From the IMG/VR virus record IMGVR_UViG_3300023184_000578, positions 1 through 21,646 of that record: DNA of 21,646 nt; one strand, written 5' to 3'. Both the position numbers and the translations under genes were made by a program. Each line of letters opens with the position of its first letter. Positions within the stretch are counted from its first letter, which is position 1. The stretch is from a virus. The notes under the pieces are model-generated. The model was given only the letters and a program-made list of their open reading frames with translations, had not been told where the DNA came from and did no database searches. Shown in pieces: positions 912-17,814 of this stretch.

Positions 912-1793
912 ATGCGAAAGGTCAACTACCTCAACAACAAAGATATACTAAAAGAAATTGCAAAAAGTAAACTAACTTACTGTAGTTTCATAGACGATAG
1001 TGTAAAAAGCTACGATGCTATAGTTACCAGCGTAGACAAAATCACTAAAAAATCCATACAAGAAGCACGCAAAGCTCGCGCAGAGCGATTAGCCAAAGAA
1101 GCACAAGAAGCTGATCTATTAAATGGCATTAAGAAAAAGTTAGACGAATACCTAACTCCTACCAAAGATATTCCACAAACAGATGTGGTTTTCCGTGTTA
1201 TGACTTGGGAACACATACCAATCGACGAAGCTAAACAGAAAAAAGCAGATCAAAAAGCACAAGAAGAATACGATGCTGACGAAGATAATTTTGAAACAGA
1301 GTATGATGAACCTGTAGTGGTCAAGGGTGCTACTAAGTATACCAAAGTAAACTTCCCTCCGTTCCAACATTTCCGTGTAGATGAAGAAGGCACACCTATC
1401 TGTGTAGGCAAAAGCCATTGGAAAGGTGGTGTTGAAAAAGGTAAATTTTCAAAAGACCACGGAACCATGACTGCTAAACTCGCACACATGTTCATTAAAT
1501 TATGTGAGCGTTATGCTACTCGTAGTAACTGGCGTGGTTATACCTATAACGATGAAATGCGTAGCCAGGCATTACTACAGCTAAGCCAAATTGGTCTACA
1601 GTTTGATGAGTCAAAAAGTCAAAACCCTTTTGCTTACTACACAGCAGCAATTACCAACAGCTTTACTCGTGTTCTTAACATCGAGAAGCGAAATCAAAAC
1701 ATTCGTGATGATATTTTAGAAATGAACAACTACAATCCAAGTTACACTCGACAAGGCGAGTGGGGTGCGGGTGGCGGGCATTACGAAGAATAA
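912..1793 (+). CDS. 55: Late-transcription sigma factor, T4 gp55-like
   Basis: Late sigma factor that directs host RNA polymerase to TATAAATA-type promoters. The N-terminus VNYLNNKDILKEI matches T4 gp55 (YNYVNNKELLQAI). The C-terminal core (about residues 188-270) matches the sigma region 2-like part: KLAHMFIKLCERYATR, NWRGYTYNDEM, FDESKSQNPFAYYT and a basic IEKRNQN. At 293 residues it is much longer than T4 gp55 (185). The extra length is an internal segment of roughly 150 residues with a charged Lys/Glu-rich helix (about 45-80) and a conserved-looking PPFQHFRVDEEGTPICVGK stretch. The T4 C-terminal clamp-binding tail (SLDFLYE) is not visible; this protein ends in a Gly-rich tail. A good AAGGA site precedes the ATG. 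The 3' end overlaps the next gene. Confidence 0.9.
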   Translation: MRKVNYLNNKDILKEIAKSKLTYCSFIDDSVKSYDAIVTSVDKITKKSIQEARKARAERLAKEAQEADLLNGIKKKLDEYLTPTKDIPQTDVVFRVMTWEHIPIDEAKQKKADQKAQEEYDADEDNFETEYDEPVVVKGATKYTKVNFPPFQHFRVDEEGTPICVGKSHWKGGVEKGKFSKDHGTMTAKLAHMFIKLCERYATRSNWRGYTYNDEMRSQALLQLSQIGLQFDESKSQNPFAYYTAAITNSFTRVLNIEKRNQNIRDDILEMNNYNPSYTRQGEWGAGGGHYEE

Positions 1794-3207
1794 TTTTTCT
1801 ATTGTTGGTCAAGTTGATCTAACCAAAATAAGATCGTTTGCTGATCTACACCAATCTCTTTTGGCTGTTAAAAAAGATATTTTTCAAGATCATGAAAGGA
1901 TTCTTTTTATCTATAGCAAACATTCGCATAATATTTTAAATCTCACTAAAGATCTTTTGATAGAGTTTGATATTCCTGAATATTTCACTCTATTTGAATC
2001 TATAGAATATTACGACCCTGAGGCATTAGATTATGATCTACATGATGGACACTGTATATATCCTTGGATTAATTTACGTATTAGCACCACTGGAGACATA
2101 TCTCCTTGCTGTTACTATGATGGATATCTGCAGGACGATCAAGGCAACGATCTTAACATAAACAATAACAACCTTGAGGAAATATATCTAAGTCCTGCGA
2201 TGAAATCATTGCGTGACCAACTTCGCACACATCAAAAACCAACAGGTTGTAAAAACTGTTGGGCGAGAGAAAAAGACAATCTGCCCAGCATGCGACAGAA
2301 TGGTAAAAACAAATTTAAAGAAATTTATTACAAAGTTAATTGGAACGCTGAAGATATCAACAACCTTCAACTATTTGATTTAAATTTAGGGAATCTGTGC
2401 AATCTTTCCTGCAGGATATGCGGACCACTCTCCAGCGTAGAAATTGGTAAACAAGAGCTATCAGCTGGACGACTCGCAGAACAAGATTTCATAAAAATAC
2501 AAAAATCTGTGCAATGGGAAGATACTGATCAATTCTGGCACCAGATGGAAGGACTAATTCAAAATATCAAATATTTAGATCTATATGGTGGTGAGACCAT
2601 GATGTCTAAAAAACATTTTAATTTCCTAAGAAAATTAATTAACGCCGGAGTATCTAAAGATATTAGACTATTTTATAATACCAACGGAACATTTTATTCT
2701 GACAGATTTTTTGACTTATGGAACAATTTTAAATCTGTTACTGTGAATATCAGTGTAGATGATATCAAACAAAGATTTGAATATCAACGCAATGGCGGGG
2801 ATTGGAAAGTATTAGAAGAAAACGTTAACAAATTTAAAAATCGCATCAGTGACAATTTTAATATAGAAATATTTCCCACGGTGAGTATACAAAATGTCTA
2901 TTATATGCCAGAATTAGTCCAATGGACAGAATCTTTGGGATTACCCATCTACTTCAATATGTTGTTGGGTCCCGATTTCCTTTCCGTTGATTTGTTGCCT
3001 GCACCTGCAAGACTTGCGGTAATTGATAAGTTATCTTCGAGGAAAGATCACCCGTTAATCGCAAAATTAATAAACAAACTAAAAAATATAAATTACACAG
3101 GTAATAATAAAGAATTTTTTGACTATATGAAGCAGTTAGATATAGAAAGAAATCAAAACTTTGCTGATGCACACAAGGAAATAGCCAATTTAATGAACTA
3201 TGAGTAG
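1765..3207 (+). CDS. Radical SAM protein A (N-terminal Cys cluster type)
   Basis: A 480-residue radical-SAM enzyme; substrate unknown. The SAM-binding 4Fe-4S motif is C212-N-L-S-C216-R-I-C219, followed by an LYGGE motif and a TNGTF strand. Ahead of the core lies a second Cys set: C97 in CIYPW, C115-C116 in SPCCYYDG and C162/C165 in CKNCW. This resembles an auxiliary-cluster (twitch/SPASM-like) module placed N-terminally instead of at the usual C-terminal position. The same architecture recurs in the gene at 4257, so the two are paralogues. The GTG start at 1765 overlaps gp55 by 29 bases and has AAGGCGAG just upstream; a GTG at 1771 is an alternative. Arginine is mainly AGA/AGG (11 of 19 by my count), against 3 of 14 in gp47, which suggests a separate origin. 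Confidence 0.88.
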   Translation: MRVAGITKNNFSIVGQVDLTKIRSFADLHQSLLAVKKDIFQDHERILFIYSKHSHNILNLTKDLLIEFDIPEYFTLFESIEYYDPEALDYDLHDGHCIYPWINLRISTTGDISPCCYYDGYLQDDQGNDLNINNNNLEEIYLSPAMKSLRDQLRTHQKPTGCKNCWAREKDNLPSMRQNGKNKFKEIYYKVNWNAEDINNLQLFDLNLGNLCNLSCRICGPLSSVEIGKQELSAGRLAEQDFIKIQKSVQWEDTDQFWHQMEGLIQNIKYLDLYGGETMMSKKHFNFLRKLINAGVSKDIRLFYNTNGTFYSDRFFDLWNNFKSVTVNISVDDIKQRFEYQRNGGDWKVLEENVNKFKNRISDNFNIEIFPTVSIQNVYYMPELVQWTESLGLPIYFNMLLGPDFLSVDLLPAPARLAVIDKLSSRKDHPLIAKLINKLKNINYTGNNKEFFDYMKQLDIERNQNFADAHKEIANLMNYE

Positions 3208-4256: not shown

Positions 4257-5795
4257 ATGATAGATCTATCTGAATACTCATCATTTGGTGACAAGTGGTT
4301 ATATGATTTATTATCTAAAGAAAAACAAGAAGTATACTCTAATGATTTTAAATTGGTCGTAGCATATACCCAAGATGTGTTTAATAACGATTCAGCAGTA
4401 GGTAATGCACTATTACGTCTACAAGAATATCTATCTAAGTTAGATATCCCAAATTTCTTCGTTGAATTGCATACAAATAAAGAAGACATACACAGAGATC
4501 TTAAGACTATAAAAGATATTTTTACTCCTGCAGACGTAGAAATTAGTTTCAAACTAATGCCGGGCCGATTTCAAAAAAAGGTCATCAATCAAGATTCGAT
4601 TTGTATTCTTCCATGGATGCATTTGCATATTAGTCCGCAAGGAAGAATAGGGACCTGCTGCCAATTTGACGAAAATTATCCTTTAGGCCACGTAAGTCAA
4701 GACGATCTTAACACAGTCATCAATAATGAAAAAATGAAAACCGTGCGCAGACAGATGTTAGCTGGGCAAAGACCTGATGTCTGCAACAACTGTTGGAGGC
4801 AAGAAGATAGGAATTTAATTTCTCTGCGACAAGAAAATAATAGTTTATTCCGACATCATATGCCATTAATAAACAAAACCAAGCCAGATGGAACATTTGA
4901 GGAATTCAAACTAAGATCTTTTGATTTCAGGACTTCAAATGTCTGTAATCTACGTTGTAGATCTTGCAGTGGAAAATACAGTTCAAGAATCGCACGAGAA
5001 GAAATCGAATTATATCCTGAAATATATGATCAAAATAATTTTGTAGAATTAAAACTGAATTCTGCAGAAATATCTAATGTATTAGGCTTCGTTAAAGAAA
5101 GCATCCATGAATTAGAACAAATATATTTTGCTGGTGGTGAACCATTAGTTATGTATGAACATTACATGATTTTAAATTTTCTAATAGAACACCAACGCAC
5201 AGATGTTGAGTTAGTTTACAATACGAATTTATCTACACTCAAATACAAGAAATTTTCAATTATTGATTATTGGAAACAGTTTTCTGATGTAACTGTGTTA
5301 GCCAGCATAGATCTAATCGGCGAACGAGCAAACTACGCAAGATCAGGGGTAGAATATCGTGTAATAGAAGAAAATTATATAGCCATACGTGATTATGTTC
5401 GTGTTAAAATTGACAGCACATTGACTGTATATAATGCATTTAATTTAGTCGATCTACAGCAACATTGGATTAAAACTTTTAATATGCCTCCAGGAGATTT
5501 TAACATACGTATTGCGATGTTACCTCCAGAGGTTCTATCATGTAGAGTATTACCAAAATCATATAAAGAATCAGTAAGCAAAAAAATTGTTGATCATATC
5601 AATTGGTTAGGTAATATCAGTGGATCAGCGGCTCTTGTGGAAAAGTGGCAAGAAGTGTTATACTTTATGAATAGCGATGATCAGAGTCACCTCCTGGGAG
5701 AATTCTTCAGGATAAATGATGATAAAGATCGCATACGTGGCGAAAAATTTGAAGATGTATTTACAGAATATCAAAATCTAAGATCATATGTTTAA
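4257..5795 (+). CDS. Radical SAM protein B (N-terminal Cys cluster type)
   Basis: A 512-residue radical-SAM enzyme, paralogue of the gene at 1765. The N-terminal Cys module is C116 (CILPW), C134-C135 (GTCCQF) and C176/C179 (CNNCW followed by RQEDRN and SLRQEN). The SAM-cluster motif is C230-N-L-R-C234-R-S-C237, with AGGEP and YNTNL following. The first 110 residues lack recognisable motifs and may be a substrate-binding extension. The ATG abuts the TAA of gp47 and the 3' end overlaps gp46 by 8 bases, so it is translationally packed between the two subunits of one complex. Arginine codons are mixed (about half AGA/AGG). The substrate is unknown; peptide or sugar-derivative chemistry is possible from the family but not shown here. 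Confidence 0.9.
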   Translation: MIDLSEYSSFGDKWLYDLLSKEKQEVYSNDFKLVVAYTQDVFNNDSAVGNALLRLQEYLSKLDIPNFFVELHTNKEDIHRDLKTIKDIFTPADVEISFKLMPGRFQKKVINQDSICILPWMHLHISPQGRIGTCCQFDENYPLGHVSQDDLNTVINNEKMKTVRRQMLAGQRPDVCNNCWRQEDRNLISLRQENNSLFRHHMPLINKTKPDGTFEEFKLRSFDFRTSNVCNLRCRSCSGKYSSRIAREEIELYPEIYDQNNFVELKLNSAEISNVLGFVKESIHELEQIYFAGGEPLVMYEHYMILNFLIEHQRTDVELVYNTNLSTLKYKKFSIIDYWKQFSDVTVLASIDLIGERANYARSGVEYRVIEENYIAIRDYVRVKIDSTLTVYNAFNLVDLQQHWIKTFNMPPGDFNIRIAMLPPEVLSCRVLPKSYKESVSKKIVDHINWLGNISGSAALVEKWQEVLYFMNSDDQSHLLGEFFRINDDKDRIRGEKFEDVFTEYQNLRSYV

Positions 5796-7562: not shown

Positions 7563-8975
7563 ATGGATGTCACTATCGTTGCAGTACCTTATGTAGAAAC
7601 CGTAGAAGCCATTATGGCTCCTGCATTATTGAAATCAGTTTTGGCTACACACAACATACGTGCGGTTGCGATAGATCTCAACATTGAAATAGTAAATCGT
7701 ATAGAGCATCACCCCCGAAAGCAACAGATACTTGATTTTTTCTTTTCGCAAGTAATACATCCAGAAGCAGTTGAAGACATTGAAGAAATTATCAACTACT
7801 GTTCTCACAGAATATTACAGTATAATACCCCGACTATAGCCATGAGCATGTTGATCTACAGCGGACAAATATTTACACGCTGGTTGTGTGCTCGAATTAA
7901 AACAATTAACCCGGCCGTTAAGATAGTTGTGGGCGGCACAGGTATCAAAAACTTCGTCGCAGAAGATAAATCTACCTTTTGTGAACAAGCCCGACAGCTT
8001 GGTCTAATAGATGATTATATAATCGGAGATGGAGAATTATCATTGGTAGAATATCTTAAAGGTAACTACAACTATCCCGGAATTAACAATAATGACTGGT
8101 TACCACTGGCTAATCTTAACGATCTTCCATTTCCTGACTATAGTGACTACGACTTTAGTCAATACAAGGACAAAGAAATACCAATAAATGACAGCCGAGG
8201 CTGTATCAAAAATTGTGAATTTTGTGATGTTATCGAACATTGGAAAAAATTCCAATATCGTACAGCAGATATCATATTTGAAGAAATGTTATATCAGATA
8301 GATCAGTTAGGTATTTCTTATTTTTCTTTCCGTAGCGCACTAACCAATGGTAATATGAAAGAATTTAATAAACTGTTAGATCTAATAGTTGATTATAATT
8401 CCAACAAGCCACGTGAAAAACAGATTGGGTGGAACGGATATTTTATCATACGTAATGCTAAATTCCATACTGAGGACCTTTGGAAAAAAATTAGTTTATC
8501 TAATGGACTATTGCTCGTAGGAGTTGAAAGCGTAGTATCCAGGGTCCGACATCAGTTAGGAAAGACCTTTGAAGATGATGACATAGATCATAATCTAAAA
8601 CTTAGCCAGCAGTATGGTGTTCCTTTGATATTGCTGATGATCGTTGCATACCCAACAGAAACTCTACAGGATTTTGAATATACCAAGCAATGGTTTAGAA
8701 ATCATAAACAGTATGCGAATAATTGTGTAAAATTTGTTAATTTATCTTTTGCATCAATATTGCCTGGCACACAGCTGGCGAGAAAAAGCGACGAGTATAG
8801 TATCAAAAAGGGATCATTACCAAGTATTTGGATCAATCAAAATCTTAGCATAACTACTAAACAACGATTAGATTATCTCCGAGAACTCAGAGATATAGTA
8901 GTCAATGAGTGTGGGTTTAATGCAGAAACCAGTGAACAAACTATCGAACATAGCACAACCGATGATACCTTCTAA
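7563..8975 (+). CDS. B12-binding-domain radical SAM protein C
   Basis: A 470-residue radical-SAM protein of the class with an N-terminal cobalamin-binding (Rossmann-like) domain. Domain landmarks: an N-terminal strand DVTIVAVPY, VVGGTGIKN near 120-130, DDYIIGDGELSLVEYL near 150-165, the linker FPDYSDYDF, then the SAM cluster SRG-C214-I-K-N-C218-E-F-C221. The middle holds the TIM-barrel core and LLLVGVES. A DxHxxG cobalamin ligand motif is not visible, which is common in this class, so real B12 binding is uncertain. Such enzymes perform methylations, ring rearrangements or thiolations. It starts 2 bases after gp46 and overlaps the next ORF. It is a different subfamily from the other four radical-SAM proteins in the cluster. 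Confidence 0.88.
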   Translation: MDVTIVAVPYVETVEAIMAPALLKSVLATHNIRAVAIDLNIEIVNRIEHHPRKQQILDFFFSQVIHPEAVEDIEEIINYCSHRILQYNTPTIAMSMLIYSGQIFTRWLCARIKTINPAVKIVVGGTGIKNFVAEDKSTFCEQARQLGLIDDYIIGDGELSLVEYLKGNYNYPGINNNDWLPLANLNDLPFPDYSDYDFSQYKDKEIPINDSRGCIKNCEFCDVIEHWKKFQYRTADIIFEEMLYQIDQLGISYFSFRSALTNGNMKEFNKLLDLIVDYNSNKPREKQIGWNGYFIIRNAKFHTEDLWKKISLSNGLLLVGVESVVSRVRHQLGKTFEDDDIDHNLKLSQQYGVPLILLMIVAYPTETLQDFEYTKQWFRNHKQYANNCVKFVNLSFASILPGTQLARKSDEYSIKKGSLPSIWINQNLSITTKQRLDYLRELRDIVVNECGFNAETSEQTIEHSTTDDTF

Positions 8976-9402
8976 ACTAACTATAAATTTTCGGTTTGGC
9001 CTTTACAATGGGTCTATGTCTTTGCGTATCAGTGATAAAGATAAAGAGCTTTTTTATCTTTCATCAACTGATAAAGAATTAGTCTGTGCGGAGTTTCCTT
9101 TAGAATTACCAAATATCTTAGTGTTTGAGATTGAAGGCAAAAACCCAAAAACAGATACTAAACTAAGTTCCGACGGCCAGGTCATCGCGGATAAGTTTAT
9201 TCAGATACAGTCTATGTCATTAGATCTTATTCCTGTGTCAGAACAACTGTTATTTAAAATTTTAAAATATACTCCAGCCAATCAAGATACAACCTTTAAC
9301 ACCTATTGGGCATTTAATGGTGTGGCGGAATTAGATTTTAATGAACAGACTGCGGTAAGATGGCATCTACGAAATAACAATGTGTTTAATTTAAATGTTT
9401 GA
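8962..9402 (+). CDS. Unknown small protein, probably all-beta
   Basis: A 146-residue protein from ATG 8962 (MIPSKLTINF...). An in-frame ATG at 8905 would add 19 residues but needs a 71-base overlap with the preceding gene; 8962 overlaps only 14 bases and begins at the apparent domain start. The sequence alternates hydrophobic residues in strand-like patterns, with an acidic stretch (SLRISDKDKEL), a middle DGQVIADKFIQIQ and a late TYWAFNGVAELDF followed by TAVRWHL. This looks like a beta-sandwich of carbohydrate-binding-module type, but that is an impression, not an identification. It has no membrane segment or signal peptide. It overlaps the next radical-SAM gene by 8 bases and so belongs to the same transcription unit. 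Confidence 0.75.
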   Translation: MIPSKLTINFRFGLYNGSMSLRISDKDKELFYLSSTDKELVCAEFPLELPNILVFEIEGKNPKTDTKLSSDGQVIADKFIQIQSMSLDLIPVSEQLLFKILKYTPANQDTTFNTYWAFNGVAELDFNEQTAVRWHLRNNNVFNLNV

Positions 9403-10507
9403 TTATACTACTATAGACGAATATCAGATCGAAATTACAACTAATTGTAATGCGGCCTGTCCTCAGTGCCCTCGAAACATACACGGCGGTGAAGTTAACC
9501 CACATCTGCCAGTGGTTTATCTCGATCGCCAGACTATCGATCGTGCATTCCCTCCTGAATTGGTAACGAAATTACGTCAGGTATTCTTTTGTGGTAGCTA
9601 CGGTGACCCTATAGTGCATCCAGATTTCTTAGATATACTCAGAGACTTTCGTGCAAAAAGCCCCACAGTGTGGTTATATATACATACTAATGCTGGTGTG
9701 CGCAGTCCAGACTGGTGGGCAGAACTTGCTGGTATTTTAAATGGCTATGGCAAAATAGATTTTGGTATTGATGGATTAGCTGATACTAATCATATCTACA
9801 GACGTAATGTCAAATGGGACAAAGTTATGGCCAATACCCAGGCGTTTATACGTGCAGGCGGAAAAGCACAATGGAACTATATTGTGTTTAAACATAATGA
9901 ACACCAAGTCAAAGAAGCAGAACAACTAAGTCAAGCTATGGGATTTGAAAATTTCTTATCTCGCAATACTGGGCGTTTTTTCCATCACGGGCGTGTAGAA
10001 GAATTAGTTGCTTGGCCAGTAAAAAATGCCAACGATTTAGAGCCGCCTGTAAATGAACAGTATCGCAATCGTTCAATGATTAGGTTGACAGAACTTAAGA
10101 AAGAATACAATAATATAAGAGACTACTTTGACACTACAGAAATACGTTGTGATGCACTATTGGGGCGCAAAGTAGCTATTACTGGTGAGGGATTAGTTAT
10201 GCCTTGTAATTTCTTTACACATAATCTATATGATAAGAGATTCTATGATGCTAACACTTTACCAGGGCATAATGAATTAAGCAACGTAAATGGAAAAAAT
10301 CAAATTCAAGAATTAATCAAGCAGTATGGCCGCAACAATTTAGATATACACTTTAAGTCGTTGGAAGAAATATTTGCCAATGACTTTTGGTCGCACATTG
10401 TCGACAGCTGGAACAAAAATTTAAATGATGGTAGAATTTTTGAGTGTGCTATGACCTGCGGTAGCAAATTAACTAAAGTATGGGATCAAGGAGGCAGTAA
10501 AAGATGA
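9395..10507 (+). CDS. Radical SAM protein D with SPASM-like C-terminus
   Basis: A 370-residue radical-SAM enzyme with the cluster very near the N-terminus: C18-N-A-A-C22-P-Q-C25, then CGSYGDP (66-72), and IDGLADTNHIYRR near 125-137. The C-terminal half carries C252, C271 (VMPCNFF) and C351/C355 (CAMTC), a SPASM-like auxiliary-cluster pattern. It is a clear paralogue of the gene at 11094: both share the DTNHIYR, AFI-AGG and HN-HQV blocks in the same order. It is about 70 residues longer because of an insertion between C271 and C351. The ATG overlaps the stop of the preceding ORF and the stop overlaps the next start, giving tight coupling. SPASM enzymes act on peptides, proteins or sugars; the substrate is unknown here. 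Confidence 0.9.
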   Translation: MFDYTTIDEYQIEITTNCNAACPQCPRNIHGGEVNPHLPVVYLDRQTIDRAFPPELVTKLRQVFFCGSYGDPIVHPDFLDILRDFRAKSPTVWLYIHTNAGVRSPDWWAELAGILNGYGKIDFGIDGLADTNHIYRRNVKWDKVMANTQAFIRAGGKAQWNYIVFKHNEHQVKEAEQLSQAMGFENFLSRNTGRFFHHGRVEELVAWPVKNANDLEPPVNEQYRNRSMIRLTELKKEYNNIRDYFDTTEIRCDALLGRKVAITGEGLVMPCNFFTHNLYDKRFYDANTLPGHNELSNVNGKNQIQELIKQYGRNNLDIHFKSLEEIFANDFWSHIVDSWNKNLNDGRIFECAMTCGSKLTKVWDQGGSKR

Positions 10508-11085
10508 AAATGTTAGTAACCGGAGGGAATAGAGGACTAGGATTAGCGTTAGTTAATCACTTTACTGCTGATAGTATCAGTCGCGCTGATGGATTAGACA
10601 TTACTAAAGACGTCAAAGCTATAGCAGAACAGAGTTTAAATTATGACATTTTTGTAAACAATGCCTTTGATGGTCCCCCACATGAGCCATGGGCAAACTT
10701 TGCGCAGACTAATTTATTATACGAAGTATATCAACAATGGAAGACCAATAATAAAAACGGCTGGATATTTAATATTGGCAGTGTGGGTGAAAAATCTATC
10801 AAAGAACCAGAGCCTATGTTTGAAACCTATAGGACCAGCAAAGCCGCACTAGCACATGCCAGTAAGCAGTGCACCGCAGCATTTAAAAATAATTTAGTGC
10901 CGTTTAAAACAACTCTGATTACCTTAGACAGACTTGATACGGATCTTGCAAGATCTCGTCCTACGTGGACTGGTAATGGTATTAACTGCCAAGACGTAGC
11001 CAAATTTATTGATTACTCTCTATCTATAGCCGATAACAGTTGTATAGAAGAAGTTACTGTATATGTAAATTTCAATAGCAAATAA
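10504..11085 (+). CDS. Short-chain dehydrogenase/reductase (SDR)-like protein
   Basis: A 193-residue NAD(P)-dependent oxidoreductase of the SDR fold. The cofactor loop is TGGNRGLG (residues 6-13), the NNA motif is at 52-54, the active-site Ser is S93 in NIGSVG and the catalytic pair is Y109-x3-K113. It is shorter than a classical SDR (about 250), mainly through a compact region between the NNA and Ser motifs and a short C-terminus, but the catalytic set is complete. A strong GGAGG site precedes the ATG, which overlaps the stop of radical SAM protein D (ATGA). Lying between two paralogous radical-SAM genes, it probably oxidises or reduces an intermediate of the same pathway; that is inference from context. 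Confidence 0.87.
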   Translation: MKMLVTGGNRGLGLALVNHFTADSISRADGLDITKDVKAIAEQSLNYDIFVNNAFDGPPHEPWANFAQTNLLYEVYQQWKTNNKNGWIFNIGSVGEKSIKEPEPMFETYRTSKAALAHASKQCTAAFKNNLVPFKTTLITLDRLDTDLARSRPTWTGNGINCQDVAKFIDYSLSIADNSCIEEVTVYVNFNSK

Positions 11086-11093
11086 TATTTGGT

Positions 11094-11990
11094 ATGTTAA
11101 CAATAGGCGATAGAGAAGTAAAGGTATTACATATAGAACCAACCGATGCGTGTAATGCGGCCTGCCCACAATGTCTTAGAGAAACAGACAAGACCTTTAA
11201 TAAAGACGATCTACATCATCTGACTGTGGATCAAATCAAACAGCTGATCAGTGAAGATACCATATCAAATCTCAACAAGGTTTATATGTGCGGGGATTAT
11301 GGTGATCCAGCTGCTGGGCGACATACTTTAGATATATTTAGATATTTTAGATCTATAAATCCCAGTGTAGTGTTAGGTATGAATACCAACGGGGGGTTGC
11401 GATCCGTAGAGTGGTGGCGTGAATTAGCAGAAATCATGCACCAACCAACAGCTCATCCGCAGGAATATGTAGTATGGAGTATAGACGGATTAGAAGATAC
11501 TAATCATATCTATAGGGTCAATGTCAACTGGAACAAGGTCATAGAAAATGCCAAGGCATTTATCGCCGCTGGCGGACTTGCACATTGGGAAATGTTAGTA
11601 TTTGAGCATAATCAACATCAGGTTGATATGGCCCAAAATTTAGCCAGAGATATGGGATTCAAATGGTTTAGAGCTAAGGTCAGTAAGAGATTCATACCTT
11701 ATCCTGTAGAGTTTTTAAATCCGCCTAGCGGGTGGCAAGATCCTGTAGTAACACAAGGATCAATTGATTGCCAGGCTATTAAGGAGTCAACAGTTTATAT
11801 CAGTGCCCGGGGCATTCTGTATCCTTGTTGTTGGTTAGCTACTGAAAAAGATTCAGAATTGGGCAATTTTTCTGAAGTTATACACACATGGAAATCTGAT
11901 AACCCAAATCAGATCTGTAAGACTATGTGTTCAAGTAATAATAAAGGAACAAGTTTTACAAATCAATGGCAACGAGAAGTTGAATTTTAA
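11094..11990 (+). CDS. Radical SAM protein E with SPASM-like C-terminus
   Basis: A 298-residue radical-SAM enzyme, paralogue of the gene at 9395. The SAM cluster is C20-N-A-A-C24-P-Q-C27, with CGDYGDP at 66-72, MNTNGG near 96-101 and IDGLEDTNHIYR near 130-141. The C-terminal Cys set is C226, C245-C246 (YPCCW) and C275/C279 (CKTMC), again SPASM-like. It lacks the insertion seen in protein D. It starts 8 bases after the SDR gene with only a weak ribosome binding site, which suggests coupling. It ends the radical-SAM run; a 62-base gap with a new strong ribosome binding site follows. The product is unknown. Confidence 0.9.
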   Translation: MLTIGDREVKVLHIEPTDACNAACPQCLRETDKTFNKDDLHHLTVDQIKQLISEDTISNLNKVYMCGDYGDPAAGRHTLDIFRYFRSINPSVVLGMNTNGGLRSVEWWRELAEIMHQPTAHPQEYVVWSIDGLEDTNHIYRVNVNWNKVIENAKAFIAAGGLAHWEMLVFEHNQHQVDMAQNLARDMGFKWFRAKVSKRFIPYPVEFLNPPSGWQDPVVTQGSIDCQAIKESTVYISARGILYPCCWLATEKDSELGNFSEVIHTWKSDNPNQICKTMCSSNNKGTSFTNQWQREVEF

Positions 11991-12462: not shown

Positions 12463-12897
12463 ATGTCATATGAATATCCTTGGACATACAATGGTAAAAT
12501 CTTTGATTCTGAGGATATTCTTGACAACTATGGCTTTATCTACCGAATAACAAATACCACAAATGGCTACGATTATGTAGGCCGCAAATACTTTACTACA
12601 GTCAAAAAGAGACCACCTCTAAAAGGCAAGAAAAACAAACGCAGGGAAACAGTTGAAACTGATTGGAAAGAATACTGGGGCAGTAGTCCCAGACTACAAG
12701 CAGATATCGACACGCTAGGCCGAGATAAGTTCACACGCGAAATCATACACTTATGTAAATCACGTGGCGAAACCAATTACATGGAAGCCTATTACCAATT
12801 TACTGAAGGCGTGCTGTTGCGTGAAGACAACTACAATGGCATTATACAGATTAAATTAGGTAAGAATTCCGTTAAAGATTTAAAGTTTAACAAATAG
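12463..12897 (+). CDS. GIY-YIG-like putative endonuclease
   Basis: A 144-residue protein with a GIY-YIG-like signature: YGFIYRITN (FIY in place of GIY), then DYVGRKYF (YVG in place of YIG) with the conserved Arg after the Gly. Further on are WKEYWGSS, DTLGRDKFTREIIHLCKS and NYMEAYYQF, whose Glu would fit the metal-binding position. The domain seems complete, with no long DNA-recognition extension, so it may be a small free-standing nuclease of the kind common in T4-like phages. The ATG is 8 bases after the previous stop in an AT-only stretch with no clear ribosome binding site. Activity is not certain, since the first motif is degenerate. Confidence 0.65.
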   Translation: MSYEYPWTYNGKIFDSEDILDNYGFIYRITNTTNGYDYVGRKYFTTVKKRPPLKGKKNKRRETVETDWKEYWGSSPRLQADIDTLGRDKFTREIIHLCKSRGETNYMEAYYQFTEGVLLREDNYNGIIQIKLGKNSVKDLKFNK

Positions 12898-12905
12898 GAT
12901 ATCAG

Positions 12906-13703
12906 ATGACGTCTGTATTATTTTCTGGATGTTCTTTTGTACTGGGCTCAGGTCTAGACAAAACAAAAGAAGATCCTGGGAATTTTTGTAATGTGCTATC
13001 AGATAATTTATTTGGTAGCGACACAAAAATAAAAAATATAGCCGTAGGTGGATATTCAAACGAACGTATTTTTTTAGATACGGCATTTGAGTTAACACAA
13101 TCAAGGTATGATTATGTTTTTGTTGGGTGGACATCTCTACATAGATATGTATTTTGGATGGGATTAGAATTATACGATTCTAAACGTAGTTTTATACCAG
13201 GTCAATCACTCAGCGCACTACCTGCACACAATGGTAATGATATTTCTTGGTCACAGGATCAATTGGCAAAGTTTGAAAAATATTTTTTATTATTAAATCA
13301 CGCACACTACTATATTCGTGATCTGGTATCATATATTAACATTTTAATTAATTTAGCAAAAACTAAAAAGTCTAAGATATTTTTTATTAATAATTTATTA
13401 CCGTGGGATACAGGATATTTTGATCATATTAAATCTGATATTACTCCGGGTTTGCTAACAAGGTATTCTAGAGAATTATTAAACAGTGATAATCGAGATG
13501 ATCAAGAGATCAATCAACTTTATCACATGATGCACGGTCATTATGCTGAAAAAGGTGGCATAAATGAACCACATTGGCTTAACCTATATCAAAGTTTTTT
13601 TAACATGCGTATAGATTTTACTGATGATAATGTGCATCCAGGATACAAAAGCCACAAATTATTTGCTGACTTTTTAACTGAAGAATTTAAGAAACACAAT
13701 TAG
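12906..13703 (+). CDS. SGNH/GDSL-hydrolase-like protein
   Basis: A 265-residue protein with the SGNH hydrolase block order: GCSF (residues 8-11, Ser10 as nucleophile), a block II glycine in AVGGYSNER (46-54) and the C-terminal DDNVHPG (D240-G246) providing the catalytic Asp/His pair, followed by the usual helix (SHKLFADFL). The family removes acyl or acetyl groups from sugars, lipids or peptidoglycan. No signal peptide is visible, so it should act in the cytoplasm or on an intermediate. A TAGGATATCAG site precedes the ATG, 8 bases after the nuclease gene. It could trim an acyl group in the product of the upstream radical-SAM/SDR genes; this is inference. Confidence 0.72.
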   Translation: MTSVLFSGCSFVLGSGLDKTKEDPGNFCNVLSDNLFGSDTKIKNIAVGGYSNERIFLDTAFELTQSRYDYVFVGWTSLHRYVFWMGLELYDSKRSFIPGQSLSALPAHNGNDISWSQDQLAKFEKYFLLLNHAHYYIRDLVSYINILINLAKTKKSKIFFINNLLPWDTGYFDHIKSDITPGLLTRYSRELLNSDNRDDQEINQLYHMMHGHYAEKGGINEPHWLNLYQSFFNMRIDFTDDNVHPGYKSHKLFADFLTEEFKKHN

Positions 13704-14145
13704 CCACTATCGCAGTTTATACTGTGTCATGAGGTGATCCTGCTCGCGTAATGGCCGCAGGTGGAACGTGTAGAGTAGACTACACACATGACGGCAAGGC
13801 GTATCAATTAGGTGTAAAAACCAAAAGATCCGGGCTCCGAAACAAACCGACCCGGGAGCAAAACATCAGTTGGCTAACTACGGCTGAGTGAGCTACCGCC
13901 AGAGAAATCTAGAGTAGGGGGTACCGGCTGACCGCCTCCGTGCTAATGATAGTAATCTCTTTTAGTTAGTGTGACTCTGCACTCGGATAATGTGCCTGTT
14001 TGCAATTTGCCTCGGATAGGTAAATTGTGACTGGCATCTGGATAATGCTAAGAACAGTAACATAAGTTCAAAGTTAATACAGTAGATAGAGTAGAAAGAA
14101 AAAGGCTTTAGAGCGCAAGCGATAAAGCAGATGTCGTAGACATCT
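13704..14145 (+). ncRNA. Candidate structured non-coding RNA (gene-free region)
   Basis: This is the only long gene-free stretch; with its terminator it spans 13704-14212. Its 5' half is visibly richer in G+C than the flanking genes. Plus-strand hairpins by eye: 13711-13726 (6 bp, loop TTAT), 13768-13785 (GTGTAG/CTACAC), 13830-13859 (two mutually exclusive stems), 13979-13995, 14003-14027 and 14032-14050 (same GGATA loop), 14105-14128 (GCTTTA/TAAAGC capped by tandem G-A pairs and a GCAA tetraloop) and 14129-14145 (7 bp). I looked for tRNA, tmRNA, RNase P and group I/II intron landmarks and found none that hold. A 46-codon ORF (13751-13891) lies inside but uses GC-rich codons unlike the phage genes. 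The strand is inferred from GNRA-type loops and flanking gene direction; no promoter was identified. Confidence 0.5.
13979..14050 (+). repeat. Three tandem hairpins with a shared GGATA loop
   Basis: Hairpin 1: GCAC (13979-13982) and GTGC (13992-13995), loop TCGGATAAT. Hairpin 2: CAATTTGCC (14003-14011) and GGTAAATTG (14019-14027), 9 bp with one G-T pair, loop TCGGATA. Hairpin 3: TGGCAT (14032-14037) and ATGCTA (14045-14050), loop CTGGATA. The stems differ in sequence while the loop is kept, as expected for repeated protein- or RNA-binding sites. GGA in hairpin loops is the recognition element of CsrA/RsmA proteins in sRNAs such as CsrB and RsmZ. Confidence 0.6.
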
Positions 14146-14160
14146 TAAAACGAAGTCAAC

Positions 14161-14193
14161 AAAAAAGCGTGAATAAATGAATATCCACGCTTT
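14161..14193 (-). terminator. Rho-independent terminator for the minus-strand membrane-protein gene
   Basis: On the minus strand the 8-bp stem AAAGCGTG/CACGCTTT (14186-14193 with 14164-14171) has a 14-base loop and ends in a run of six T (14166-14161). It lies 20 bases past the stop of the gene at 14213-14446. On the plus strand the same hairpin is followed only by GTGCC after the stem, so it would terminate poorly in that direction, but it may still mark the 3' end of the RNA region. Confidence 0.7.
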
Positions 14194-14212
14194 GTGCCAT
14201 ACCAAAAAGAAC

Positions 14213-14446
14213 TTATTTGTTCTTCCAAATAGAATACAATACCCATACTGCCACTAAACCAACTACGCCTTCTGAACCTAAACCTTTTACGATTCCTGTT
14301 ACAGAGCCAACAACGTCTACAGTTGGTACGAATGGGATAGCTGCTCCCTTGAATAATACCTGTAATACAAGCAATAACGCTAAAACTGATACGCTTGTAT
14401 CTGCAAGGGCACTTGCCCATTTCTTAATTGTAGCTAAGATTTCCAT
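14213..14446 (-). CDS. Small two-segment membrane protein, holin-like in layout
   Basis: A 77-residue protein starting at ATG 14446 with an AGGAG site 9-13 bases upstream; a longer in-frame version from 14485 would lack this site. Two hydrophobic segments are visible, about residues 16-37 (SVSVLALLLVLQVLF) and 58-74 (GVVGLVAVWVLYSIW), separated by a short Pro/Gly-containing loop, with a charged N-terminus and a KNK tail. The topology and size fit small holins or other inner-membrane phage proteins, but no family is certain. It has its own terminator and a leader of about 100 bases containing a CTGTG/CACAG hairpin with a GCGA loop (14474-14487) and a TAAATA core (14497-14502), a possible weak late promoter. 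Confidence 0.8.
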   Translation of the reverse strand: MEILATIKKWASALADTSVSVLALLLVLQVLFKGAAIPFVPTVDVVGSVTGIVKGLGSEGVVGLVAVWVLYSIWKNK

Positions 14447-14562
14447 ACTATGGAGTCTCCTAAATAACCAACGCTGTGTCGCCACAGTGGGTAAACTATT
14501 TAGGTTCTTAGGAAAATCGTAATACTATAGGTTAATGATTTACGTTTTGGGATACTTATAGC

Positions 14563-14786: not shown

Positions 14787-15623
14787 TTATGCGAAAAAAT
14801 TTGCTTGATCAAACTCCAGGGCAGTTTCGTATTCGTGATTACAAGCACTGCAAGCGACTTTCACAGGTTTGATCTTATTTTTGTTCATAATATCCTGTAT
14901 ACGATCTCTGATGTCAGTGAAAGTTTGTCGCCCGCAGTTGTCTAAGAATTCACGGATCATCGCTGGATCGCTAACTGTTTTGCCGTCAGCGGTGATGCTT
15001 TCTATGCAGTCAACTAACACACTAATATTTAAATCGTTGATCTTAGCAAAACTCTCATCGAACAAGCGTTTCTTGTCTTCATCAGAGATTTCGCTGTCCA
15101 AAACATTATTAACTAATCGTCGCTCTTCAAATGTAGCGATGTTCATCTTATTAACATCTCTGTATTTTTGTGGTTTGAACTTGAAGATCAGATCGTCGAT
15201 CTTAGGTTGTTCTGTGTAGTCTGCAGCTGAGATATTTTCTAACACTGTGGTTAAATTGATAGTGTGCTCGTTGGCTTCTTTGCATTCTGGGCAACTGGTA
15301 TTGATGTCCATGCCTGTGCCATAGCTGGCTAACCGTATGGCGATAAAAATAGCGTCAAGATCTACAGCAGGAATATTCCAAGGATCTAATATAGTAGGAC
15401 AACAGCTACGGATCACAGCAACCATGCCCTCACCGTTCATCAGTGCGTCTGGTGTTTTAAGCGTTAGCTCATCTTTGACTGTCATTGGATAAACAGGTAT
15501 GTCTCCTGTTACACTGATCTGCAGGCTACCGTCTGGATAGAACCTACCTTGGCTGGGCAATTTCAGGTAAACAGCTGGCTGCCTAAAATGCTTGAATAGT
15601 GGGTTATTGGTGGGTTTTTCCAT
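14787..15623 (-). CDS. 26: Baseplate hub protein, T4 gp26-like
   Basis: A 278-residue protein of the T4 baseplate (gp26) family, part of the central hub on which the tail assembles. Hallmarks are YLKLPSQGRFYPDGSL near the N-terminus, IPVYPMTVKDELTLKTPDAL (42-61) and IRSCCPTILDPW (71-82). Two CxxC pairs, C111/C114 (CPEC) and C258/C261 (CSAC), probably form a zinc ribbon. The start is ATG 15623 (MEKPTNNPLF) with GAGGA 11 bases upstream; an in-frame extension toward 15800 would run into the divergent tape-measure gene and is not credible. Transcription would come from an AATAAATA element between the two divergent genes. Confidence 0.88.
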   Translation of the reverse strand: MEKPTNNPLFKHFRQPAVYLKLPSQGRFYPDGSLQISVTGDIPVYPMTVKDELTLKTPDALMNGEGMVAVIRSCCPTILDPWNIPAVDLDAIFIAIRLASYGTGMDINTSCPECKEANEHTINLTTVLENISAADYTEQPKIDDLIFKFKPQKYRDVNKMNIATFEERRLVNNVLDSEISDEDKKRLFDESFAKINDLNISVLVDCIESITADGKTVSDPAMIREFLDNCGRQTFTDIRDRIQDIMNKNKIKPVKVACSACNHEYETALEFDQANFFA

Positions 15624-15637
15624 TGGTTTTTGATCCT

Positions 15638-15645
15638 CATAAATA
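15638..15645 (+). promoter_or_regulatory. Late-promoter-like octamer CATAAATA for the tape measure
   Basis: CATAAATA differs from the T4 late consensus TATAAATA only in the first base. It ends 36 bases before the ATG of the tape-measure gene, a normal distance. It faces the minus-strand octamer at 15662-15669, so the two elements form a divergent pair within a 58-base intergenic region. Confidence 0.45.
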
Positions 15646-15661
15646 TATGTGTATACTTGTA

Positions 15662-15669
15662 TATTTATT
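15662..15669 (-). promoter_or_regulatory. Late-promoter-like octamer AATAAATA for gp26
   Basis: Read on the minus strand this is AATAAATA, one base from the T4 late consensus, ending 38 bases before the gp26 ATG. The same AATAAATA variant occurs ahead of the portal gene, which supports it as an accepted late element in this phage. Confidence 0.45.
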
Positions 15670-15681
15670 GGATAAAAACCT

Positions 15682-17814
15682 ATGGCTGTAAGAATTGACG
15701 TTCCTGGAATTGGTGTAGTAGAAGCAGAAGGTGTAGCCTCTGAGGAAACCCTGCAGAGGATAGCTGCTGCACTGGAAAAATCGTCTGGCGGACTTGCCAA
15801 AGATCAAAAAGATCAAAGCAAAGCAATCAAAGACTCAACTAAAGCCCTTAAAGAAAATACCACGGGATGGGTAGCTGCAGGTGACAATCTCACACAGAGT
15901 TTTAAGAATCTCGCCTTAACTGCTACCAGCGTAGCAACAAAATTTTTTGCAAATTATGATACCATAGCATCAAGTCCAATCAAAGCCGGCCAAGCCCTGC
16001 TCAATACAGCCATTGATGTCACTGCGGATTTTGCTGGTGGTCTTGCCAGTGCGATACCTATCTTTGGTGGATTAGCCAAAGGTGCGATTGATGCTACAGC
16101 GGCTCTGGCCAAAGTAGCAAATGATGCCTTTGCTGATCAACTGCAAAAGAATGTTGATGCCTTGAGAGAATATGCTAAATCAGGCATAGGATTCTCGGGT
16201 GGCATGACCCAGATGCAGAACGTTGCCCAGGCTGCTGGATTAGGTATTAAAGATTTTGCACAAGGTGTAACCAGAGCCAAAACAGATCTGAATCAATTGG
16301 GCATGGCAGGTGGCGATGCGGCTGCCGCGCTGTCTAAAAATCTTGGACAGTTAGCTAAAAAAGGTCCTGGAGGCATGCCATCACTGCGTGATGAAATGTT
16401 TAAGATGGGCTATAGCTATGAGCAACAGATCGAAGTAGCTGCCAGCTTCATGGCCAACATGCAGGCCGCTGGTAAGCTGGAAAAGATGAGCAAAGAAGAT
16501 CTGGCCAAAGGCACAAGGCAGTATGCCGCAGATCTAAAAGTATTAGCCGACTTCACGGGCAAAGATGCATTAAAAGTCCAAGAACGTGCTCGTATGGCCA
16601 CTATGCGAGCAGTGATACAACAGAGATTAGATGATACCCAACAGGCACGATACAAAGACGGTATCAGCGTATTAGAAAAATTACCACACCATTCAGCTGA
16701 AGCTCAGCAGGCATTAACCCAGATGATTCTGACTGGGACCACGAATATCGAAGGCTTTACTATGGGTCCTCAACGCAAGATGATTGAGCAGATGGCCAAG
16801 GATATACAAAGTGGCACAGGATCTGTGATTGAAAACACTGCGGGGTTCATGAATCAAGCGCAGACTGAATTGCGTGCTGACTTAGCACAAGGTGCCATGG
16901 GCCTTAGCAAGACCATGGGTGTTGGCGGAGCCGCTGGTGCATTCTCGGATACCAGTGATGCTATCTTAGGCATGGGCAAAGTATCTGCTGATCAGACCAA
17001 AAAAGGAAAAGATGCTAACGAAAAAATGGCAACAGCGTTTGACAAGCTGTCGACAAGTCTGGCATCATTATATGATGTATCACAAAACTATAAGGTGCAG
17101 ATTGAAGGGTTCTTAAACAGCCATCTCGATTTATATGCAGAAAAACTAAAAGGAGCATTTGAAACCACTACTAATACTATCTTAAAAGGTATAGGTGGTT
17201 TTGGCGGCGGCGGCGATGCAGGACTGCATCCGTCAACTAAAGAAATGATGTCCAAGGCCTTGACAGGTAAAGATACCAGTGGTAAGAAAGTTGGATTCTG
17301 GGAACAGTATTTTAACACAGTTGGCGCTGCCGGAGCCCCTGGAGTATTACCAGCATTCGCTGATGGTGGTAAGTTAGGTGCAGGCAAAGTTGGTATAGCA
17401 GGCGAAGCAGGACCAGAATTGATCAGTGGGCCAGCTACTATACTCAGCAACGCATCATATGAAAAACTTATGATAGCTTTAGATGCTATGAAAGAACAAA
17501 AAGGCATTCGATTGGGTGATAATGGTTTTGACGCAATGGTAGGAACAACCAAACAACGAGCCGAGATTCTTAATAAACGCACCAGTGGATTCGAAGGGCT
17601 GAGCCATACAGATTTAGAACGTGAAATGCAGTCACGCCCTGAATATCAGGCCATACAACGTGCTAAAGATGCTATGATGGAAGGTGAAGATCAACCAACT
17701 AAGTGGCCAGGCAAAGACGCCGCAGATCAAACTGTTGCTTTGTTGGGCGAATTAGTCTCAGCTATGAAACAGAACGTCAATCAAACTGCCAGAGTAGCCA
17801 TGAATACCAACTAA
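15682..17814 (+). CDS. Tail tape-measure protein (gp29-like role)
   Basis: A 710-residue Ala/Gly/Lys-rich, mostly helical protein that fixes tail length. Features: an N-terminal helical region with KDQSKAIKDSTKALKENT, a glycine-rich hydrophobic stretch near 118-135 (GGLASAIPIFGGLAKGAID), long helices from 150 to 480, a GGFGGGG linker near 510, and near 565-590 the tape-measure hallmark FADGGKLGAGKVGIAG followed by EAGPELISGP. It is longer than T4 gp29 (590 residues), which would predict a somewhat longer tail if length scales as in known tape measures. The gene sits divergent from gp26 and upstream of the portal. TTGGA serves as a modest ribosome binding site. Confidence 0.87.
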   Translation: MAVRIDVPGIGVVEAEGVASEETLQRIAAALEKSSGGLAKDQKDQSKAIKDSTKALKENTTGWVAAGDNLTQSFKNLALTATSVATKFFANYDTIASSPIKAGQALLNTAIDVTADFAGGLASAIPIFGGLAKGAIDATAALAKVANDAFADQLQKNVDALREYAKSGIGFSGGMTQMQNVAQAAGLGIKDFAQGVTRAKTDLNQLGMAGGDAAAALSKNLGQLAKKGPGGMPSLRDEMFKMGYSYEQQIEVAASFMANMQAAGKLEKMSKEDLAKGTRQYAADLKVLADFTGKDALKVQERARMATMRAVIQQRLDDTQQARYKDGISVLEKLPHHSAEAQQALTQMILTGTTNIEGFTMGPQRKMIEQMAKDIQSGTGSVIENTAGFMNQAQTELRADLAQGAMGLSKTMGVGGAAGAFSDTSDAILGMGKVSADQTKKGKDANEKMATAFDKLSTSLASLYDVSQNYKVQIEGFLNSHLDLYAEKLKGAFETTTNTILKGIGGFGGGGDAGLHPSTKEMMSKALTGKDTSGKKVGFWEQYFNTVGAAGAPGVLPAFADGGKLGAGKVGIAGEAGPELISGPATILSNASYEKLMIALDAMKEQKGIRLGDNGFDAMVGTTKQRAEILNKRTSGFEGLSHTDLEREMQSRPEYQAIQRAKDAMMEGEDQPTKWPGKDAADQTVALLGELVSAMKQNVNQTARVAMNTN

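Follow-up and report, generated by a model that had tools for sequence, protein, structure and literature searches.

The DNA analysed here, hereafter the window, is a 21,646-nucleotide (21.6 kb) fragment of a virus record from a T4-like or jumbo myophage. It carries a metallophosphoesterase gene and an SMC-type ATPase gene in gp47 and gp46 position, as well as portal-like and protease-like genes whose identity was inferred from sequence. Two further genes flank the region of interest: a SegE-like GIY-YIG nuclease gene (PF19835; Pfam 4.5e-37) at 12463..12897 on the plus strand, the usual upstream neighbour of the element described below, and a gp26-like baseplate gene (PF12322, T4_baseplate) at 14787..15800 on the minus strand, the conserved downstream neighbour, which may in truth begin within the ORF as listed. 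Proteins with radical-SAM-like cysteine motifs (1765-3207, 4257-5795, 7563-8975, 9395-10507 and 11094-11990) sit between the recombination genes and the element; the sole one tested, 1765-3207, matched the Pfam Radical_SAM and SPASM domains. Positions 1-911 appear gene-free in the ORF list, yet hold an open minus-strand frame that runs off the contig end and is conserved in other loci.

The element itself occupies positions 13704-14145 on the plus strand, from just past the upstream stop codon through a terminal hairpin. An earlier note had described about 440 gene-free bases here that were GC-richer at the 5′ end, and both descriptions hold: the ORF before it stops at 13703 and no plausible gene follows until one on the minus strand that ends at 14213, while GC content is 0.48 across 13651-13950, compared to ~0.30 just upstream and 0.36 across 13951-14250. 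The sole internal ORF (13751-13891, 46 aa) was rejected as a small protein because single-base indels break its frame in relatives. The plus strand folds to −134.4 kcal/mol, versus −118.8 kcal/mol for 100 dinucleotide shuffles (z −2.57), and the minus strand folds no better than its dinucleotide shuffles (z −0.98). A separate terminator-like hairpin with a T run, in the last part of the gap (14164-14193, minus strand), serves the minus-strand gene at 14213-14485.

Relatives of the element were found by several routes. Two loci, L002 and L003, were reached by protein neighbour search, and their intergenic stretches align with that of the window; L003 conserves the element over its full length and L002 over the part that it contains, with paired stem changes visible by eye. 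Searches with two conserved stretches, and then with a degenerate core pattern, placed close relatives at more than 150 IMG/VR loci, a lower bound since more exist than those listed, on contigs of up to 346,856 bases. They fall into two subtypes, A (window-like) and B, which have a common core. Bacterial and archaeal genomes of ~85,000 species yielded no true match to the core pattern, and two apparent bacterial copies (L109 and L110) were chance matches in GC-rich coding sequence.

That this stretch is a new or divergent structured phage RNA, as first proposed from its letters, is supported by strong compensatory change among these homologues, both against shuffles and against a phylogeny-aware null, and by the lack of any Rfam family match. 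Covariation was scored by a G-test with average-product correction, with a null that replays inferred substitutions on the tree, across 59 subtype A and 69 subtype B sequences and across all 128 dereplicated relatives jointly. Each subtype gave 13 significant column pairs, mostly Watson-Crick, and the joint alignment gave ten pairs at E 0, a level unreached by any null pair, of which seven were Watson-Crick and three covaried by identity. In a 40-sequence core alignment, 96.5% of cells were paired in the proposed structure, compared to 81.2% after shuffling and 43-53% when the structure was slid along the sequence; double-changed cells numbered 175, versus 47.8 in shuffles, with slid controls nowhere near, and both-sided changes occurred at 17 of the 26 pairs. 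The homologues and their covariation rule out chance folding, and the region is almost certainly a real structured RNA.

At least eight hairpins had been noted from the letters, and eleven helices can in fact be placed, most with covariation support and all on the plus strand. The first, a 5′ hairpin GCAGU/ACUGU (13712..13725), rests on alignment with relatives and on the RNAalifold consensus of subtype A. It is followed by a three-way junction (13726..13792) with closing stem GUCAUG/CAUGAC and arms CCUGC/GCAGG (13739-13743/13757-13761; CGUGC/GCACG in L003) and GUGUAG/CUACAC (13768-13773/13780-13785), which covaries significantly at subtype A columns 97-119, 98-118, 127-142 and 128-141. Helices 1 and 2 of A2 correspond to a CCGGG/CCCGG stem with an inner UGU/ACA-type hairpin (13830..13855), where 98.7% and 100% of cells are paired with both sides changing, and helix 3 of A2 to a hairpin CAGUUG/CGGCUG (13867..13886), where 95% are paired and all six pairs show both-sided changes. 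Farther 3′, an AGAG/CUCU stem (13911..13960; pair 13911-13960 AU in 86, UA in 35 and GC in 6) surrounds a core hairpin GGGGGU/GCCUCC (13917..13939; pair 13917-13939 GC in 102, AU in 26 and mismatched in 0) and a small variable hairpin GCUA/UAGU (13942..13953; 13943-13952 and 13944-13951 covary). Another hairpin lies between two repeats considered below (14003..14027; 14005-14025 and 14012-14018 covary). The tandem G-A hairpin with a GCAA loop that had been singled out at 14105..14128 is borne out by a covarying stem (14105-14126 and 14106-14125), and the terminal hairpin AGAUGUC/GACAUCU (14129..14145) belongs to the consensus of both subtypes, with weak covariation at 14132-14142 (E 0.2).

The core hairpin also takes part in a pseudoknot, helix 4 of A2 (13898..13932), in which G-CCAG (13898-13902) pairs with CUGA-C (13928-13932) within the GGGGGU hairpin loop. 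More generally, a loop of the form ACCGG[NNNN]CC pairs with an upstream CCG[NNNN], and this pairing covaries through at least six combinations (UCAG/CUGA, UUGA/UCAA, UCAU/AUGA, UCGU/GCGA, UUGC/GCAA and UUGG/CUAA). The core loop and flanking nucleotides around the covarying pseudoknot show almost no variation, as a tertiary core should. This pseudoknotted core, GGGGGUAC.GG[NNNN]CCGCCUCC with upstream CCG[NNNN], is a trait of the family and is present in the element.

The RNA family is absent from Rfam 15 and from the annotations that we examined. Covariance-model comparison against Rfam 15 gave no match at the gathering score in the window, in ten relatives or in nine isolate stretches, and Rfam, tRNA and tmRNA searches (the latter with ARAGORN, which found no tRNA in the window) came back empty, in keeping with the earlier failure to recognise tRNA, tmRNA or intron landmarks. 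We found no description of this RNA in the open-licence papers searched. A sub-threshold match to EGFOA (RF02955) of 29 bits (E 0.001; cut-off 37.7) lies in the syntenic gap of Sinorhizobium phage Phosso; however, the EGFOA consensus differs from that of the present family, its model matched no family member meaningfully (of 13 IMG/VR records with the RNA, 12 gave nothing and the other an unrelated 10.9-bit match, E 2.2), and the Phosso gap has no match with the present RNA model. That gap (PV764938.1, 8230-9243 of stretch L320), 1014 nt long, unannotated, syntenic and with many hairpins, is probably another large structured RNA. The stable RNAs C and D of T4 are likewise non-coding RNAs of T4-like phages with obscure function, but they are much shorter and lie inside a tRNA cluster. 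Group I and II introns share with the present element a large RNA adjoining a GIY-YIG nuclease gene; unlike them, the element matches no Rfam intron model, is intergenic instead of interrupting a gene, and bears direct identical strands rather than complementary guides.

These strands emerged from the unbiased covariation analysis, in which some column pairs covary by identity rather than complementarity (AA/GG/CC, GG/AA and UU/AA). The columns belong to two direct repeats in the 3′ half of the RNA, N-A-CUC-[7 nt] and N-A-UCU-[7 nt], which lie either side of a hairpin, usually 48-80 nt apart. In the window, repeat 1 (13980..13991, plus strand) reads C-A-CUC followed by GGAUAAU (13985-13991) and repeat 2 (14035..14046, plus strand) reads C-A-UCU followed by the same GGAUAAU (14040-14046), so that the family trait of twin identical 7-nt strands after CUC and UCU around a hairpin is present here. 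The twin 7-mers are identical in 125 of 128 relatives, which hold 17 different 7-mers among them. On a tree built without the twin-strand columns, repeat 1 changed ~45 times, repeat 2 ~46 times and the joint pair 46 times, demonstrating that practically every change occurred in both strands. Among 153 distinct pairs, identity was 0.98-1.00 over exactly seven positions and fell to the compositional expectation 3′ of them, while the preceding CUC/UCU triplet differed in every pair; this extraction takes the best match after CUC and UCU, and the unbiased proof lies in the covariation analyses and tree counts. The twin strands must match each other, with their sequence otherwise free.

Matched sequences around a hairpin, ~50 nt apart and linked to a homing nuclease, are also found in the translational bypass element of T4 gene 60; in contrast, the present region is non-coding, the match there spans seven nucleotides that are free in sequence, and its structured RNA is far bigger. 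Pairing of the 7-mers in cis was rejected for lack of a complement: the 59 subtype A RNAs hold 0 exact antisense sites in cis for their own 6- and 7-mers, and the surroundings of the RNA are depleted in such sites. An antisense target elsewhere in the phage was similarly not supported, as neither the 7-mers nor their complements were enriched over swapped 7-mers, whether across the genome of the phage itself or at any distance up to 4 kb, although a single unlinked site may exist. CsrA-type GGA binding loops were also dropped because GGA itself varies, with AGA, GAC and others in its place.

We then turned to cultured phages. Direct BLAST with the window RNA found no isolate, but the covariance model detected divergent copies in gene-poor gaps of four, Agrobacterium phage Atu_ph07, Cronobacter phage GAP32, Xanthomonas phage XbC2 and Erwinia phage Kaldavass, at scores of 17-24 bits that are weak alone and are joined by retention of the core sequence and twin strands (GACUC-AUGAAU and GAUCU-AUGAAU in Atu_ph07; AUCA-UCGUCAG and AAUC-UCGUCAG in the other three). 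Atu_ph07 (MF403008.1) has a second copy at ~383.3 kb that keeps the core and has no recognisable twin strands. BLAST from the XbC2 copy reached 126 places in 31 records of jumbo phages related to GAP32, CBB, Munch and 121Q; R1 matches in PA5oct and phi30-2 were not counted, as the core is not kept. GAP32, XbC2, pEa_SNUABM_19, CBB and Munch each carry five copies and 121Q at least four; in every case the copies share a strand and their spacing is more regular than chance would give (minimum-gap P 0.001-0.006 per five-copy genome and 0.05 for 121Q, from related genomes that are not independent). In four phages the pair matches within each copy, four copies reading UCGUCAG in both twin strands and the copy at 92-99 kb reading CCGUCAG in both; a TACAAAT repeat in the 92-99 kb copies was set aside as a chance repeat.

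This genomic arrangement bears on the possibility that the element acts primarily as DNA, as a packaging, partition, replication or recombination site whose repeats are sites with matching overlap. Identical 7-bp cores of free sequence are a classic mark of recombination overlaps, and the near-evenly spaced, co-oriented copies of the isolates would suit such a role, as would the single copy per freshwater genome record (the covariance model found one in each of ten large records). However, covariation that keeps RNA pairing, the pseudoknot and the conserved loops indicates selection on the RNA fold, and the conserved neighbours include no recognisable recombinase gene. The RNA does not lie at a GC-skew extremum in most genomes, and a replication origin was rejected for want of a consistent coincidence with GC skew. 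We regard a DNA-level role as improbable.

The position of the RNA is conserved along with its strand. Across 187 loci it follows a same-strand block with gp46 and a nuclease gene, mostly facing an opposite-strand gp26-like gene, and when the search was run from the gp26-like side the covariance model found the RNA in 63 of 78 loci, on the expected strand in 62 of the 63; in several of the other 15 the sequence ends too near the gene to tell. GAP32, XbC2 and pEa_SNUABM_19 each have one copy at a window-like place beside the gp26-like gene. The GIY-YIG nuclease gene precedes the RNA on its strand in 147 loci, without an intervening gene in 127, and an unrelated PDDEXK nuclease (PF24608) replaces it in 13, most of the remaining loci (L053, L076, L112, L129, L139, L150, L160, L182, L189, L200, L205, L210 and L219). 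This association raises the idea of a ribonucleoprotein in which the RNA partners whichever nuclease lies upstream and the twin strands serve as short guides. Yet the nucleases, with recombination genes next to them, may be no more than junction resolvases, for which the two enzymes are perhaps alternatives; the Atu_ph07 copy at 490 kb and most Mimasvirus copies lie elsewhere; GIY-YIG relatives occur in 460 phage records, including checked cyanophages with no match to the RNA model; and seven nucleotides are short for a guide. Such a complex therefore seems very unlikely.

The same neighbourhood could instead point to a structured 3′ UTR or to a transcription boundary where convergent gene blocks meet, with a role in mRNA stability or in forming mRNA ends. 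The RNA ends a plus-strand block, the nearest downstream ORF is on the minus strand in 125 of 162 loci, and a feature under the homologous GAP32 stretch is annotated 'terminator'. Against this, sequence and structure are conserved far beyond what an end signal needs, a search of the plus strand found no terminator-like site, and several loci have a same-strand gene next. We give this explanation very little weight.

The element also resembles the ornate RNAs GOLLD, ROOL and OLE, which are large, highly structured and non-coding, have obscure cellular roles and belong partly to phages. The element could be a new RNA of this sort, forming an RNA-only particle of many copies with the twin strands as pseudo-symmetric intermolecular contacts. 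Its size, phage home, long conserved loops and pseudoknot resemble those of ornate RNAs described so far, which assemble into homo-oligomers through symmetric contacts, an unusual A-A helix among them (PMC12286853), and symmetric homo-contacts would select identity rather than complementarity. On the other hand, the element has no sequence or covariance-model match to GOLLD, ROOL or any other Rfam family, differs from these ornate RNAs in structure, is at 440 nt smaller than GOLLD and ROOL, and has identity-coupled twin strands and up to five copies per genome. GOLLD and ROOL are located near phage tRNA clusters, whereas in the one large genome compared (G001) the RNA lies at 195.5 kb, ~80 kb from the tRNA cluster at ~103-116 kb. 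Within that 346.9 kb record, stretch L226 (100001-120000) holds 26 tRNA genes within 14 kb, as well as a permuted-tmRNA prediction (10821-11310 of the stretch) with an odd tag that may be false. We consider an RNA-only particle rather unlikely, and rank it second.

An identity rule needs one partner bound twice, a symmetric contact or a matching process at the DNA level. We place the first of these foremost. For this reading as a whole, in which the element encodes a large, pseudoknotted non-coding RNA found in jumbo and T4-like myophages, we see about an even chance; that its twin strands form a two-site dock is, taken singly, a more tentative proposition and less likely than not. In this two-site docking model, the RNA would be made from the plus strand, probably as the 3′ part of the transcript carrying the recombination genes, and would be stabilised by its terminal hairpins, with the fold presenting the twin 7-nt strands to the same partner, which could be a single RNA or DNA strand present in two copies, or a symmetric protein that offers one half to each. 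Shared binding would then demand one sequence in both strands. Since the twin strands agree within every copy even where copies in a genome differ, and no genome-wide target was detectable, the requirement is most likely internal to one RNA molecule or to an oligomer of it. That argument from within-copy matching would lose force if the partner, having a G on its side, accepted both U and C. A fully intramolecular non-canonical contact would explain identity equally well and is suited by the closeness of the twin strands to a stable hairpin. Docking also has to contend with the fact that no partner was found, and with the Atu_ph07 copy at 383 kb that lacks recognisable twin strands.

Collectively, our results establish a phage RNA with a conserved fold, a conserved place and strand, and two strands held to identity. 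Large structured phage RNAs are a known kind; to our knowledge, both this family and its identity-coupled strands are new, and no described RNA family is known to carry two strands that always change together in this way. Base pairs are normally betrayed by complementary change, whereas here concerted identical change, some 45 times over, points to an RNA contact or recognition outside the scope of usual covariation searches. We hold it evenly balanced whether the family represents a new class of phage RNA, built on a homotypic recognition code rather than complementarity and set out at several near-evenly spaced, co-oriented stations in giant phages. Large structured RNAs are usually central machinery, and phages hold several with no known job. 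The present one is common in freshwater jumbo-type phages and occurs in culturable phages of E. coli, Salmonella, Cronobacter, Pectobacterium, Xanthomonas and Agrobacterium, isolates that make the family directly testable.
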